A stretch of 34,862 nt of DNA from Prevotellaceae bacterium UBA7028 (GTDB lineage Bacteria; Bacteroidota; Bacteroidia; Bacteroidales; Bacteroidaceae). Of this stretch, positions 27,748 to 33,748 are shown piece by piece. Location of the stretch: contig DLBF01000050.1 in the NCBI GenBank assembly GCA_002494215.1, positions 1-34,862 of the forward strand, read 5' to 3'. The translations under genes were made by a program, and so were the position numbers. The notes under the pieces are model-generated. The model was not told the DNA's origin. It did not search any database and saw only the letters and a program-made list of their open reading frames with translations. Position 1 is the stretch's first letter, and every line of letters begins with the position of its first letter.

Positions 27748-29586
27748 ATGGAAAATGTGTTAAAACGATATTTCGGGTATGATAGTTTCCGTCCCTTTCA
27801 GCGTGAAATTATAGAAAATATTATGCAGGGACACTCTGCACTTGTTCTAATGCCGACAGGTGGCGGAAAGAGTCTTTGCTACCAATTGCCGGCCTTGATG
27901 ATGGAAGGTACAGCTCTAGTTGTCTCACCCCTGATATCGTTGATGCAAGATCAAGTGCGACAACTTCTTTGCAATGGTATTCAAGCTGTTGCCCTGAATA
28001 GTAGTGTGGATGATTTGGACTTAATGACTCTGCAACGCGAGTGTCAGGATGGGCATGTTAAGCTTATCTTTCTTTCTCCTGAACGTTTAATGGTGGAAAT
28101 GCCCCGCCTGCTCAGGTCTATACGTGTTTCGCTGATTGCTGTGGATGAGGCTCATTGCATTTCGCAATGGGGGCATGATTTTAGACCGGAATACAGTCAG
28201 TTGGGTGTCTTGAGACAAACCTTTCCACAGGTTCCTATCATAGCCCTGACTGCAACAGCCGACAAGGTGACGCGTTTCGATATCCTGAATCAGTTGAACA
28301 TCCCTGATGCAGAAGTCTTTATTGGCAGTTTTGACCGTCCGAACTTGAGTCTGGACGTAAGACGCGGATTAGATTCATACGAGAAACGTGTTGCCATCTT
28401 GCATTTTCTAGCATCGCATAAGAATGACCCTGGTATTATCTATTGCCTGAGCAAGAAGAATGCTGAGTCTGTGGCAGCTTTCCTGCGAGCACACCATGTG
28501 GAAGCTGCCGTCTATCATGCAGGTTTGTCGTTGCTGGAACGTAACAGAGCGCAGGAAGATTTCCTGAATGACAGGGTGCAGGTGGTATGTGCTACTATAG
28601 CCTTTGGTATGGGAATTAACAAGGGAAATGTCCGTTTCGTAATTCATTACAATCTACCAAAAAGTATAGAGAATTACTATCAGGAGATAGGCAGAGCGGG
28701 TCGAGATGGTGCTCCGGCTGATACCTTGTTGTTCTATAATGCTGGGGATATTGTACAACTTACGAGGTTTGCACAGATGAGTGGACAAAGCGAGATAAAC
28801 ATGGAGCGTCTAAATCGTATGCGTGAGTATGCCGAGGCCAATGTCTGTCGCAGACGAATCCTGCTGAATTATTTTGGGCAAGAAACGGCATCGGATTGCC
28901 ATAATTGTGATGTCTGCCAGCATCCTCCTCAGTTGTTCGATGGAACAAAGTATGTCCAAATGGCGCTGAGTGCCATAGTGCGTGCCAACCAGATGATTTC
29001 CATGCATACGTGCATAGATATCTTGTGTGGTATTCCATCAGACGAGGTGGGGCGTTACCAATACTACAAGTTGAAAACCTTTGGGGTAGGAAGTGCAGTG
29101 CCAGTAAGAGATTGGAGGGATTATATGCTGCAGATGCTGCAGATGGGGTATATTGAGGTAATGTACGACCAGCACAACCATTTGCGTGTAACCGAACTGG
29201 GGCGACAAGTGCTATATGGAGAGCGTCAGGCTATGCTAGTGGTGATAAGGCGTGAGGTACAGCCACTTAAAGGGAAAAAGAAACAGCCCCGGCAAAAAGA
29301 GGTGCTGTCAGATTTGTGGAACTTTCCAAAGAATGAACCCGAGGAGGATAAGGAACTGTTCGAGATACTAAGGCAGCTTCGCCTTAGAATAGCTCAGCAG
29401 AAGGGTGAACCTCCGTTTGTGATTATGTCGGAAAAGGTGCTGCGCCAACTGGCTATGTACAAGCCTACCACCATGCAGGCGTTTGGCAATATCAATGGGA
29501 TAGGGGAGTTCAAGTGCGCTACTTACGGCCCAGTATTCCTTCCTGTGATTATTCAGCACTCCTCAGATTCTGGCTCCTCGGACTGA
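27748..29586 (+). CDS. recQ: ATP-dependent DNA helicase RecQ
   Basis: 612 residues. Helicase motifs are FRPFQREIIENI (motif 0), MPTGGGKS (Walker A, residues 35-42), VDEAHCISQWGHDFR (DEAH 133-136 plus the RecQ aromatic loop), ALTATA, and motifs V/VI with ATIAFGMGINKGNVR and EIGRAGRDG. The RQC zinc site follows (Cys in NVCRRRILLNYFG, then CHNCDVC), then a winged helix (IDILCGIPSDEV onwards). A C-terminal HRDC domain is at about 530-600 (ELFEILRQLRLRIAQQKG, PTTMQAFGNINGIGEFK). It unwinds DNA 3'-5' in recombination and fork repair. Its last 34 bp overlap tail-to-tail with the SbcC-like gene, so the two transcripts converge with no terminator between them. Confidence 0.96.
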   Translation: MENVLKRYFGYDSFRPFQREIIENIMQGHSALVLMPTGGGKSLCYQLPALMMEGTALVVSPLISLMQDQVRQLLCNGIQAVALNSSVDDLDLMTLQRECQDGHVKLIFLSPERLMVEMPRLLRSIRVSLIAVDEAHCISQWGHDFRPEYSQLGVLRQTFPQVPIIALTATADKVTRFDILNQLNIPDAEVFIGSFDRPNLSLDVRRGLDSYEKRVAILHFLASHKNDPGIIYCLSKKNAESVAAFLRAHHVEAAVYHAGLSLLERNRAQEDFLNDRVQVVCATIAFGMGINKGNVRFVIHYNLPKSIENYYQEIGRAGRDGAPADTLLFYNAGDIVQLTRFAQMSGQSEINMERLNRMREYAEANVCRRRILLNYFGQETASDCHNCDVCQHPPQLFDGTKYVQMALSAIVRANQMISMHTCIDILCGIPSDEVGRYQYYKLKTFGVGSAVPVRDWRDYMLQMLQMGYIEVMYDQHNHLRVTELGRQVLYGERQAMLVVIRREVQPLKGKKKQPRQKEVLSDLWNFPKNEPEEDKELFEILRQLRLRIAQQKGEPPFVIMSEKVLRQLAMYKPTTMQAFGNINGIGEFKCATYGPVFLPVIIQHSSDSGSSD

Positions 29587-32147
29587 AGCTGTGCCGAGTT
29601 GTTGGCTGAGTGGATTGCTTTCTCGTGATCTTCTAGTGCAACGCTATGACGGGCAATCTGCATCATAATCTCGCGACGCTTGGATTCGAGGCTTTCTAAC
29701 TGTGCGACAAGGGATTCCTGTAACGTTTCGTCGTCGGCACTATGGTAGTTGCCTTCAGCCTGCAGGGAAATAAGTCTGCTGTTCAGGTCGTCAACTCGAG
29801 CCTGGCAGAGGGCAATGTCGCGTTGTACTTTCTGAATATTGGAACGAATCTCCTCCCATTCCTTTTCTTCGCTGAAGACTTCTTGCAGTTCGGAATATTG
29901 AACAGGAGGGTGATGCATGTTGAAGTTGCGTATCCAAAGATCCAAGCGCGAGCGCTCCTGGCTTAGCTCTTCGCTCAGTTCCTTTCCGAACATAATGTGG
30001 AACTCGTCACGTCCTCTCAGGTAATCAATATCGTGCAACATCTTTTGGGTTTTCTCCTGCTCGGTTTCTTCTGCTTGACGAGCCTCTGTAAGTTGCTGGT
30101 AAACTTGGTCATATAATTGTTTGGGGCCATATTCACCTGTAGATTGCCTGATGGTCTTACTGTTCTCTTCAATCTGGTTCCTGCGATCCTCTGTACGATT
30201 GAGGGTCAGTTCGAGATAGTATCTGAAACTTTTCTGCTGTAACAGGATGGCTTCGTGCTGGGCTTTCAGAATAGCTAGTTCCTGCTGTTCCTTAAGAATC
30301 TGTTCGTTTATGGTGTCCCAGGTGTTCTTCAGCGTTATGATTTGTTCGCGCAACCCTTCGTGGGTGTTGTCCCAAATACCCTTCCAGTCTTTTATGGTTA
30401 TGCATTCCTCCAGATGGTGGTAAATCTCGCTATAACGAATGCTTTCGCTGTCTATCATTGCCGTTACCCTCTCAACTTGTCCTACTCTTACCTGACAGCC
30501 AGTGTTGACTTCGTTCAAGCGGACGTCAAGGTCTTTCTTCTGCAACTCGAGGGTCTGTAGCTTCTCGCTCAGTTTTGAGATCTGTGATATGTGATAGTTG
30601 AAAGTGTCCAACTCCTTCTGTGCTGCCTCGGCATCTGCACCTGTACTTTCTATCATGTGGCGTATCATTGCCATTCTGGCATTCTGGTTGGTGCTGGGAG
30701 AGCAGTCCTTGAAAGATGCGTCCAGCGAAGAATAGATGCCCCATTCCTTTACGTCGTCATTTTGACGAACGCGGATGGCATTGAGGGAACTCTCTTCTGA
30801 GAACTGACGACCTTTGCTTTCGGCAAGGTCAAGTCGCAACTCGTCAAGCAGCTTTCGTTTACCTCGTAGTTCTGCCGACAGCAGTTCGTAATCAGTTTTG
30901 AATTCGCCAATGAGCTTGCTTTGTTCCAACATGGTATCGCTGTGATAGGGGTGGTGCGTAGCTCCGCAGACAGAACAGCTGACGCCTTCCTTGAGGTCGG
31001 CTCTTAGTTGAATGATGTTCTGTCCCTTACTCAGAAGGTATGTATGTTCTTTTTCGTGGCAGAGGCGTGACAGCTTGCCGACCTCGTTCTCCATCTCCTT
31101 GATGTTGCGTTCTGTCTGGTCTATGTGCAGGCGCAGTTCATTCAGCGTTCTGGTTTTCTCCTCAATAGCCCGGTATCCAACAGAAATCTGGTGCCATAGC
31201 GATTGGGCAGAAATCAGCATTTGCTTCATACTCTTGAGCTGCATGGCACGTTCCTGCAGTTTGTAACTGTCCTGTCCCAAGATATTGGACTTGTGTGTTT
31301 GTAACTCGCCCTCCAGGGTTTCTATGTCTGACGTAACGTCCTGATATTTGCTGAAAACTCTCTCGAGGAGTATGTTCTCTTCCTCTTGTTTTTGAAGTGT
31401 CTCGGCTTGCAGGTTCTTGGTCCTTGCCTGTTCCTCTTCGATGTCTTGCAGGTTATCGAGTAGCAGCAGGATCTTCTCGGCATGCAGAATCGTCTGCTCG
31501 TGAATCTCCATGCTTTGGCGTCTGGACTTGTGGAGCGACAGTTGTTCGGAAATTAGGTCTATGTTTTGTTCTACTTCGTAAATGTTGCTATCCAAGGTGC
31601 TTACCTGCTGGTTGGCTTTCTCAATCAGTTTGCTCAGGTTGTCTATTTCTTCTTCGCAGGCCTGGGAATAGCCCTGAAGGGTAAAGGCGTGGAAGATATT
31701 GTCGTGTACGGCGTGGTTCTTCTCCTCCGTACTCTTGCGCTGATTTTTCATCTGAACCTGTAGCTTTTCCTGTGCACTCCAACTCTGGTTCAGGTCATCG
31801 CTTTCCCGTTTTATCAAGCTGAGACTGCGTTTGTTCTGGTCGGTAAGTTTCTCCAGGATGGCTACTCGTTGGAAGGTGCCCTGGATGGCCTCGAACATCT
31901 CGTAGCGTTCCAATTGGCGAATGTCGTTTGCCATCGAAGCCTGTTGTTTGTTTAGCTCGAAGAGTCTGGCTTTCTCTTGCTTCAGGTCCATCTTCAACTT
32001 GTTGTATCTGCGTAGGAATACCTGCTGTTTACGCAATAGTTCCAGGTTCTCCTCTATATTGTTGAGCTTGGTTTCAGCCAGCCGTTTCATCTCTTTTGTT
32101 CGCTGAAGCTGTGTATCGTTAAGTATCTTTTTGCCAAACATGTTCAT
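29553..32147 (-). CDS. SbcC/Rad50-like coiled-coil zinc-hook protein lacking the ATPase head
   Basis: 864 residues, almost entirely charged, heptad-rich coiled coil. Near the middle it has the zinc-hook motif CSVCGATHHP (Cys391, Cys394), as in SbcC and Rad50, with arms of about 390 and 470 residues. The N-terminal part (TKEMKRLAETKLNNIEENL, LERYEMFEAIQGTFQR) resembles the SbcC segment that normally follows the N-terminal ATPase lobe. No Walker A, Q-loop, ABC signature or Walker B is present. The gene starts after its own canonical promoter and stops in a plain acidic tail (EEPESEEC), converging into recQ. No head-coding sequence remains in the flanks, so it is either a complete headless protein or a stably shortened relic. 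No SbcD gene is nearby. It might bridge DNA complexes via the hook or modulate a full SbcC; that is inference. Confidence 0.8.
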   Translation of the reverse strand: MNMFGKKILNDTQLQRTKEMKRLAETKLNNIEENLELLRKQQVFLRRYNKLKMDLKQEKARLFELNKQQASMANDIRQLERYEMFEAIQGTFQRVAILEKLTDQNKRSLSLIKRESDDLNQSWSAQEKLQVQMKNQRKSTEEKNHAVHDNIFHAFTLQGYSQACEEEIDNLSKLIEKANQQVSTLDSNIYEVEQNIDLISEQLSLHKSRRQSMEIHEQTILHAEKILLLLDNLQDIEEEQARTKNLQAETLQKQEEENILLERVFSKYQDVTSDIETLEGELQTHKSNILGQDSYKLQERAMQLKSMKQMLISAQSLWHQISVGYRAIEEKTRTLNELRLHIDQTERNIKEMENEVGKLSRLCHEKEHTYLLSKGQNIIQLRADLKEGVSCSVCGATHHPYHSDTMLEQSKLIGEFKTDYELLSAELRGKRKLLDELRLDLAESKGRQFSEESSLNAIRVRQNDDVKEWGIYSSLDASFKDCSPSTNQNARMAMIRHMIESTGADAEAAQKELDTFNYHISQISKLSEKLQTLELQKKDLDVRLNEVNTGCQVRVGQVERVTAMIDSESIRYSEIYHHLEECITIKDWKGIWDNTHEGLREQIITLKNTWDTINEQILKEQQELAILKAQHEAILLQQKSFRYYLELTLNRTEDRRNQIEENSKTIRQSTGEYGPKQLYDQVYQQLTEARQAEETEQEKTQKMLHDIDYLRGRDEFHIMFGKELSEELSQERSRLDLWIRNFNMHHPPVQYSELQEVFSEEKEWEEIRSNIQKVQRDIALCQARVDDLNSRLISLQAEGNYHSADDETLQESLVAQLESLESKRREIMMQIARHSVALEDHEKAIHSANNSAQLQSEEPESEEC

Positions 32148-32168: not shown

Positions 32169-32246
32169 CAAAGGTACGGGTAAGCGAGCGAAAAAGCAAA
32201 TTAATTTGTTTTTTTCCGAGTGAAAGTAATTTCGGCGAAGCCAAAG
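32169..32246 (-). promoter_or_regulatory. Promoter and promoter-linked element of the SbcC-like gene
   Basis: Minus strand: TTTG (32200-32197), 20-nt spacer, TAccTTTG (32176-32169), ending 21 nt before the ATG at 32147. Upstream of the -33 box are a T/A tract, then (plus strand) ccgagtgaaagtaatttc and a small hairpin ggc-gaa-gcc (32234-32242) followed by caaag. This matches the layout and much of the sequence of the element before fur (24597-24728). Confidence 0.8.
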
Positions 32247-32296: not shown

Positions 32297-32345
32297 AACT
32301 TTCCATTTCTCATTTTTCACTTTTCACTTTTCACTTTTCACTTTT
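32297..32345. repeat. Heptamer array in the hisS promoter region
   Basis: cactttt occurs four times without change (32318-32345), preceded by degenerate units (aactttc, catttct, cattttt). The TTTT of one unit (32328-32331) sits 20 nt upstream of the hisS -7 box, in the place of the usual TTTG. Confidence 0.85.
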
Positions 32346-32389: not shown

Positions 32390-33748
32390 ATGGCACAGAA
32401 ACCAAGTATACCAAAGGGAACGCGCGACTTTGGCCCTCAGGAGATGGCCTGCCGTAACTACATCTTCAACACCATTCGTCAGGTTTATGCCTTGTATGGT
32501 TTTCAGCAGATAGAGACTCCTGCCATGGAGAATCTGAGTACGCTGATGGGTAAATATGGCGAAGAAGGCGATAAGCTTCTCTTTAAGATCCTGAATAGTG
32601 GCGATTTCCTGAAGGGAATAAGTAGCGAAGATTTAGAGAAAGGTGCAACCGGACATTTGGCTGCCCAGTTGTGTGAGAAAGGATTGCGTTACGACCTGAC
32701 CGTTCCTTTTGCACGATATGTTGTGCAGCATCGTGAGGAATTGACACTTCCCTTCCGACGTTACCAGATTCAGCCCGTATGGCGTGCAGACAGACCTCAG
32801 AAGGGGCGTTATCGTGAATTTTACCAGTGTGATGCTGATGTGGTTGGTAGCGACAGCTTGTTGAACGAGGTTGAGTTGATGCAGATTGTAGATACAGTCT
32901 TTCAGCGCTTTGGTATTCGTGTCTGCATAAAGATTAACAACAGAAAGATTCTTTCCGGTATTGCTGAGATAATTGGTGCTGCCGATAAGATTGTTGATAT
33001 TACAGTTGCAATCGACAAACTGGACAAGATTGGCTTGGAGAATGTGAATGCCGAGCTGTTGGAAAGTGGATTGTCTGAGGCTCAGGTTGAGAAGCTGCAG
33101 CCTATCATCGGTCTGAGTGGTTCCAATACTGAGAAGATTGCCACCATGCGTCAAGTGCTGAAGGATAGCGAGACGGGTTTGAAAGGACTTGATGAGGTTG
33201 AGTATGTCCTCTCTAAACTCTCAACTCTCAACTCTCAACTCGAACTCGATTTGACTTTGGCTCGTGGTCTGAACTACTATACAGGCTGCATCTTCGAGGT
33301 GAAAGCCTTGGATGTTCAGATTGGTAGTATAACAGGTGGTGGTCGTTACGACAACCTGACAGGTATCTTTGGCATGCCAGGCATCAGCGGTGTAGGTATC
33401 TCCTTTGGCGCCGACAGAATCTACGATGTCCTGAATCAACTGGAACTTTATCCTGAGGAGGTGACAACTGCAACCCAGTTGCTGTTCATCAACTTCGGAG
33501 AGGCTGAGGCCAATTATTGTTTGCCCATTGCCGACAAGGCACGTAAGGCTGGTATCCGTACGGAAATATATCCCGACAGCGTGAAGATGAAGAAGCAAAT
33601 GCAGTACGCAAACGCAAAGTCAATCCCCTTCGTTGCTATTGCTGGAGAGACGGAGATTGCCGAGGGTAAGGTAATGTTGAAGAATATGATAACCGGTGAG
33701 CAGAAACTGCTTGTCGCAGAAGAAGTAATAGCGGAAATTTTGAAATAG
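32390..33748 (+). CDS. hisS: Histidine--tRNA ligase
   Basis: 452 residues from the ATG at 32390 ([14 protein letters not shown], the canonical class II N-terminus). Motif 1 lies around [12 protein letters not shown]. Motif 2 is [29 protein letters not shown]. This contains the ATP-contact Arg; residues are given as one family motif split at [13 protein letters not shown]. The His-binding motif is [10 protein letters not shown]. Motif 3 is [13 protein letters not shown]. The C-terminal anticodon domain runs from [13 protein letters not shown] to the end. It charges tRNA-His in the cytoplasm. Immediately before [10 protein letters not shown] the protein has [11 protein letters not shown], encoded by a heptamer array (33216-33241) identical in unit and peptide to that in the glycosyltransferase gene. 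It ends in TAG. Confidence 0.95.
33216..33241 (+). repeat. In-frame heptamer array (aactctc, 3.7 copies) inside hisS
   Basis: aactctc three times plus aactc, translated as KLSTLNSQL in the segment joining the insertion domain to the histidine-binding motif. Same unit and peptide as 13564-13594. Confidence 0.9.

Follow-up and report, generated by a model that had tools for sequence, protein, structure and literature searches.

The window analyzed here is a 34,862-nucleotide stretch from Prevotellaceae bacterium UBA7028 (contig DLBF01000050.1), and its reverse strand carries a gene (29553..32147, -) predicting an 864-amino-acid, headless SbcC-derived protein, which is defined by its open frame, by matches across a family of relatives, and by a BLASTP alignment to intact SbcC. 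Two genes, named from a first reading of the sequence, flank it: recQ (27748..29586, +), which converges on it and overlaps its 3' end by 34 bp, and hisS (32390..33748, +), a divergent neighbor 243 bp from its start. The overlap and the short gap leave no room for remnants of an ATPase head on either side, which agrees with an earlier note on this DNA that had described an intact 864-codon frame between recQ and hisS without flanking head-coding remnants.

That note also gave the gene a consensus promoter, which holds insofar as a TAnnTTTG element, TACCTTTG (32169..32176, -), lies 29 bp upstream of the start; an ordinary sigma-70 promoter scan is blind to this element and returned nothing at the headless gene. 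We take the element to be the -7-type promoter element of Bacteroidota. It recurs 26-38 bp upstream of the start in 20/20 family loci, which were picked by the analyst, and the background frequency of TAnnTTTG was 601 in 15,632 pieces (110 nt, one strand) cut from the loci that had been fetched. The gap that separates this gene from hisS also contains a tandem repeat of short CACTTTT units (32318-32345), and other short repeats occupy the equivalent place in L003, L006, and L007.

The hisS gene adjoins the headless gene in all eight close relatives and recQ does so in seven of them. Among 36 headless-bearing genomes of a wider family sample described below, hisS is directly adjacent in 30, lies within about 3 kb in G187 and G261, and is on a different contig in G118, G229, G242, and G289. 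No constant neighbor other than hisS was seen at the family loci, and no sbcD adjoins the gene in the window or in the relatives' loci that were read.

The center of the protein is a zinc-hook motif, CSVCGATHHP, which reading of the sequence places at residues 391-400 (30948..30977, -), as had been claimed, and which is also the peak of conservation: the majority fraction reaches 0.88 for residues 381-400 in a set of 39 members, from which two with over-extended frames had been dropped. An ascending arm of predicted coiled coil (about residues 12-385; 30993..32114, -) leads up to the hook with no net length change relative to the SbcC arm, and a descending arm, placed by alignment (about residues 402-846; 29610..30944, -), leads away from it and has conserved patches at W469-R491, W588, and D736-R768. 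The heptad-like periodicity is clear in parts of the arms only, for example at residues 160-280, and hydrophobic periodicity was significant in 3/7 arm stretches tested. With 116 K/R against 153 D/E residues the protein is acidic, which makes direct DNA binding by the arms less likely and leads us to expect a partner at the free ends.

The protein lacks the features of an ATPase. Neither Walker A (G-x4-GK[S/T]) nor the ABC signature SGG[EQ] is present in the window protein, which upholds the earlier reading, or in any of 73 unique family members. In the profile searches proposed at that time, Pfam found no family for the window protein at E<=1 (AAA_23 and SMC_N included), no family, hence no AAA_23 or SMC_N, for 20 family members at E<=0.001, and no recognizable DNA-binding domain, and NCBIfam gave weak matches to Rad50_Sulf (E 7e-4; 17.5 bits, where the cut-off is 1000) and SMC_prok_B (E 0.0015). 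TIGR00618 and TIGR00619 with their curated cut-offs are a poor test in this lineage, where an intact SbcC scores 251.6 against a cut-off of 478.5, and custom profiles for the SbcC N-lobe (A2) and SbcD (A3) were used instead. A search of solved structures returned just coiled coils and unrelated chains, including one SMC chain at E 0.16, and none from SbcC or Rad50.

A scan of GTDB species genomes recovered eight relatives at 69-86% identity, all headless. Their ends agree with those of the window protein except at the N-terminus, where a stretch of as many as ~30 residues varies; this answers a check on length and ends that had been suggested before. To sample the family more broadly, 301 genomes belonging to the same GTDB family were searched with profile A1, which matched 86 of them; these were sorted by frame length and by reading of the loci. 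The headless gene was found in 36 genomes (all 36 loci read), full-length SbcC of 1195-1323 aa in 34 (all read), another headless protein in two (L102, L103), and a shorter, hookless coiled-coil protein in three (G046, G132, and G270, the last a weak match that may be unrelated); the remaining 11 matched marginally, in frames of 946-1272 aa that encode other SbcC types, with 8/11 loci fetched. In none of the 301 genomes did the headless form occur together with the long SbcC, its headed parent type. In the genus of G001, the closest relative found, 57/61 genomes have a headless match, which in G132 and G580 lacks the hook apex. Of 14 loci that were fetched following this search, 12 had a hooked body without an internal stop, one was apex-less, and one had no match. 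An order-level sample of 247 genomes gave a full-length headless match in G001 only; nine other genomes matched in part, with frames of 1005-1274 aa in eight and 575 aa in one.

The profile search flagged stops in 11 matching genus genomes. Six hooked ones were refetched (G564, G576, G592, G590, G591, G599), and five have no stop in the matched body; in G599 three stops precede the likely start, within an over-extended part of the query. Two further flagged genomes, G242 and G118, are open over a slightly shorter match in the family-sample search, and in G187 an 880-aa frame reaches window residue 838. The headless copy in G299 (L110) is split over two frames, by either a frameshift or an assembly error. 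That homologues retain frame, length, and hook takes the gene beyond a chance open frame. A mobile, phage, or plasmid origin was considered and rejected, as viral contigs held no confirmed relative and plasmids and phages held none.

The hook is nearly invariant in the family. CxxCG is present in 72/75 members read, and CxxCGAxHHP was found by pattern in 69/73 unique members, with L105, L245, and L247 reading as CxxCG[S/A]xxHP. The hookless members are L249, from within the 73, and L119 and L179 from outside that set; these three proteins of 615-626 aa keep the outer arms and have lost most of residues ~250-520, and two of the genes were located at hisS (L119:3484-5331(+) and L179:5102-6949(-)).

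The ends of the protein are more variable. The window protein begins with MNMFGKK (32127..32147, -), which the conservation alignment identifies as a form of the family motif M[NK][FIL]F[GKR]K. By regular expression a motif of this type occurs in 41/73 members and is absent or changed in 32/73, some of which are near-matches or mis-called starts. In outer headless members (alignment A5, 12 rows from L067-L108) an M[NK]FF[RK]K peptide comes first, then a linker that varies, and then a conserved segment of 40 residues, EEAARQWFxxxFGTxMPEEVxxxFRxxAxxEAKR, located where the ATPase N-lobe was. Some outer members have this segment without the peptide, and the window's clade is without the segment, most of its members keeping MNMFGKK, MNIFGK, or MNIFSK. 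Pfam gave no match for the N-terminal segment in the outer proteins tested.

By both sequence and tree, the headless protein is a derivative of SbcC. BLASTP aligned the window protein with the intact SbcC L088 at 25% identity over 831 columns (E 2e-69), pairing window residues 41-845 with L088 residues 265-1069; both spans are 805 residues long, and the 52 gap positions balance to a net change of zero. In a joint alignment of 34 headless, 26 intact, 7 degenerate-head, and 2 other headless proteins, shared conserved residues hold an offset of 224 from 79 to 841; L088 residues past ~1080 are uncovered by headless proteins, and residues 1 to ~224 are uncovered or face only stray N-terminal letters without conserved head motifs. 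The unchanged net length and the constant offset indicate that the missing parts are the two ATPase lobes. The headless set has 96 columns with conservation of >=90%, of which 45 are common to >=70% of intact SbcC and 28 are specific to the headless proteins. In a tree of the hook-proximal region (78 rows), 41 headless rows form one clade (100/100) nested in a 64-row clade of headed and derived SbcCs (96/85), and a tree of the arms alone (56 rows, short search) agrees with this nesting. Close relatives with ATPase lobes, which the earlier note took as a sign of recent truncation, were sought and not found: relatives down to ~28-30% identity are also headless, and headed SbcC falls solely outside the headless clade.

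Loss of the head happened more than once in this lineage. A second headless group consists of L102:5945-8518(-) and L103:6749-9319(-), proteins of 856-857 aa with the hook CPVCG, whose genes lie directly downstream of genes that, from their sequence features, we presume to be nrdD-nrdG-like, and which are closer to L123/L124 in the trees. Forcing the two headless groups into one costs 116 log units in an AU test (p 1e-57), which rejects a single clade, and adding the degenerate-head rows to the constraint costs 766, these groups having been named after the tree had been seen. On these trees L102 and L103 lost their heads separately from the first group, within one and the same SbcC lineage; their two genomes gave no match to an SbcC head or SbcD. 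The 34 long SbcCs of the family sample were also read for their motifs (a table of 36 rows, with one genome twice and one extra outgroup), and seven of them (L095, L097, L100, L162, L163, L164, and L185) have degenerate ATPase motifs, having lost residues of Walker A, the signature, and/or Walker B, although L100 retains Walker A. All seven keep CxxCGxxHHP. Lobe identity between these proteins and the nearest intact SbcC is 0.35-0.45, compared with averages of 0.60-0.74 for intact pairs of like arm identity, and their hook identity of 0.57-0.76 is within the intact range. The arm tree requires at least six state changes, or seven on the assumption that a loss cannot be reversed and that L100 and L185 do not pair as sisters.

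Set beside intact SbcC of the family (1247-1323 aa, 27/34 of the long ones), the headless protein has colinear arms of equal net length and the same hook, CxxCGxxHHP; unlike them it lacks the N-lobe, the C-lobe, Walker A/B, the signature, and an adjacent sbcD, and its gene is at a different locus, that of hisS. Of the features by which SbcC/Rad50 is recognized, it has the apex CxxC hook and two long flanking arms homologous to those of SbcC, but neither an N-terminal lobe with Walker A, nor a C-terminal lobe with signature and Walker B, nor an SbcD/Mre11 partner gene at its locus. Since these ATPase features were looked for and are lacking, we regard it as SbcC by descent and do not class it as a member of SbcC/Rad50. 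The degenerate-head SbcCs share its lineage, hook, and arms, with motifs wholly or partly gone, but they still have their lobes and an sbcD next door (in L164 cut by a contig end). L102 and L103 have arms and hook without lobes, as this family does, but differ in origin and locus. SMC proteins have a hinge and heads, whereas the headless protein has a CxxC hook apex and no SMC_N match.

A further comparison is LmuB of the Lamassu systems, described in one report as Rad50-like, with a zinc hook in many cases and an E-to-Q change in Walker B (PMC10586767). It is likewise a hook-bearing, SMC-like protein in which ATP hydrolysis is thought to be reduced, but it keeps its ATPase motifs, has short coils, and works with an effector (PMC10586767). 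Membership of the headless protein in Lamassu was rejected: it has no lobes, its neighbors are hisS and recQ, and the PADLOC match was weak (E 4e-5, 20 bits, residues 229-711). A headless SbcC family was not described in the titles and abstract openings listed from the open-access literature, a scope that leaves out most subscription journals and preprints, and this variant of SbcC by descent is apparently undescribed within that coverage.

Most carriers of the headless gene appear to have no other SbcC. In the genus sample the N-lobe head (A2) was found in 6/61 genomes, all six headless-bearing, and SbcD (A3) likewise in 6/61, five of them headless-bearing with a head; G597 has an SbcD fragment and no headless gene. 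No head was found in 51/57 headless-bearing genus genomes when all first-look candidates were scored, nor in 27/36 family-sample headless genomes when the best 10 first-look candidates of each were scored, counts in which absences may be too many, the titled relatives being metagenome-assembled and without a stated completeness. The other nine family-sample genomes (G077, G111, G126, G140, G146, G167, G181, G195, and G242) have both a head and SbcD. Their headed SbcCs (L145-L153) are a separate type of 1133-1171 aa with an adjacent SbcD, Walker A, the signature, and a hook that is mostly of the kind CPLCGQ or CPVCGQ; this type falls outside the headless lineage in the tree, in which four of the nine were included, and its sporadic occurrence suggests horizontal gain. 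Of the six genus-sample heads, the type was read for G242 alone, which is shared with the family sample.

We think it somewhat probable that the gene encodes a decapitated SbcC that kept arms and hook, lost both lobes, and serves as a likely ATP-independent tether or scaffold, a rod formed by a predicted dimer around one zinc. Stable dimerization through the hook is known for Rad50/SbcC (PMC6969161, PMC9569753), and in HS-AFM the hooks remain joined while the heads open (PMC6969161). With the hook near unchanged and the net arm length unchanged, a zinc-clamped dimer is the simplest expectation: by analogy with Rad50 hooks, the motif would pair two proteins through one zinc ion, and the arms would extend as a rod of roughly 55 nm each, an estimate based on the rise of a helix. 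The lack of an ATPase and the scarcity of SbcD point to a passive bridge or scaffold. More speculatively, the free ends may attach to a partner or surface, in which case the dimer would link two objects, for example two DNA-bound partners; candidate binding parts are the M[NK]FF[RK]K peptide and, in outer members, the 40-residue segment that replaces the N-lobe. The three apex-less members, the acidity of the arms, the partial periodicity, and the lack of any constant neighbor except hisS all count against a tether.

Of the readings in the earlier note, that of a defined headless family stands, now with its descent from SbcC, and two others fared worse. A decaying, functionless remnant of sbcC might explain why divergence among the headless genes is roughly threefold that of hisS (mean distances of 0.56 and 0.19 at the same 19 loci), why dN/dS in the closest pair, L005-L006, is 0.131 and so exceeds recQ (0.045) and hisS (0.089) for that pair, and why the G299 copy is split. 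Yet NG86 dN/dS between the window and L001 is 0.056 (dS 1.4; recQ 0.044 and hisS 0.074 for the same pair), and two further window pairs gave 0.062 and 0.065, these being the three with a defined dS, which was saturated in 5/8. Across 19 loci the headless distances also follow those of hisS (Mantel r 0.936, a value reached in 0/2000 permutations), suggesting that the gene was inherited vertically. Purifying selection, open frames at those loci that were read, the near-invariant hook, the promoter element, and presence in 57/61 genus genomes contradict the fixed relic that had been proposed: the headless gene is an old, selected family, and a pseudogene, ruled out by dN/dS, open frames, and presence, is left with a negligible probability. 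A decoy, regulator, or inhibitor acting on full-length SbcC through hook-to-hook pairing is very unlikely. Some carriers do have a headed SbcC (6/57 in the genus sample, 9/36 in the family sample), but none was found in the others, the nine of the family sample are of another type, and the parent type co-occurs in 0/301 genomes. Subject to assembly gaps, in most carriers no SbcC was found for the headless protein to regulate, and the proposal fails as a general role.

Two other explanations keep the protein at work without a passive tether between DNA-bound partners. In a split SbcC the rod would receive an ATPase head in trans and the complex would still be ATP-driven. An ATPase may act in trans, and the unchanged net arm length looks as though head-to-hook geometry still mattered. 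The genomes of the eight close relatives also encode AAA_23 proteins (558 and 371 aa), presumably RecN and RecF to judge from their sizes. Against it, no SbcC-type N-lobe was found in 51/57 headless-bearing genus genomes, and we judge a split SbcC rather improbable. A role away from DNA, for example as an envelope or cytoskeletal spacer anchored by the aromatic-basic N-terminal peptide with zinc as a structural clamp, seems unlikely but a little less so. The position of M[NK]FF[RK]K ahead of a variable linker would suit an anchor, and the blank Pfam search for DNA-binding domains and the rarity of SbcD fit as well; against it, the ancestor is a DNA-repair protein and the motif is not constant across the family.

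It is about evenly balanced, in our view, whether a genus with rumen members has swapped ATP-driven SbcCD for a headless zinc-hook rod as a core gene, in a lineage that repeatedly lost the ATPase and kept hook and arms. In that case the hook-and-arm part of Rad50/SbcC would do something that selection can act on without ATP or a nuclease. For annotation the matter is practical, as 0/20 members match Pfam and a majority of the 61 genus genomes gave no SbcCD match. Rad50 function is held to depend on the binding and hydrolysis of ATP (PMC4494100). The two beheadings and the several inactivated heads seen here, with hook and arms retained each time, amount to a natural removal experiment, and the family would offer a natural model for zinc-hook tethering in which hook-linked arms alone can be tested for function. 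The degenerate-head SbcCs may themselves be a family of pseudo-enzyme SbcCD complexes: the active-site motifs of the adjoining SbcD are lost or altered in L095 and L097 and, in part, at L163, the L164 gene is cut by the contig end, and the metal motifs are intact in L100, L162, and L185.
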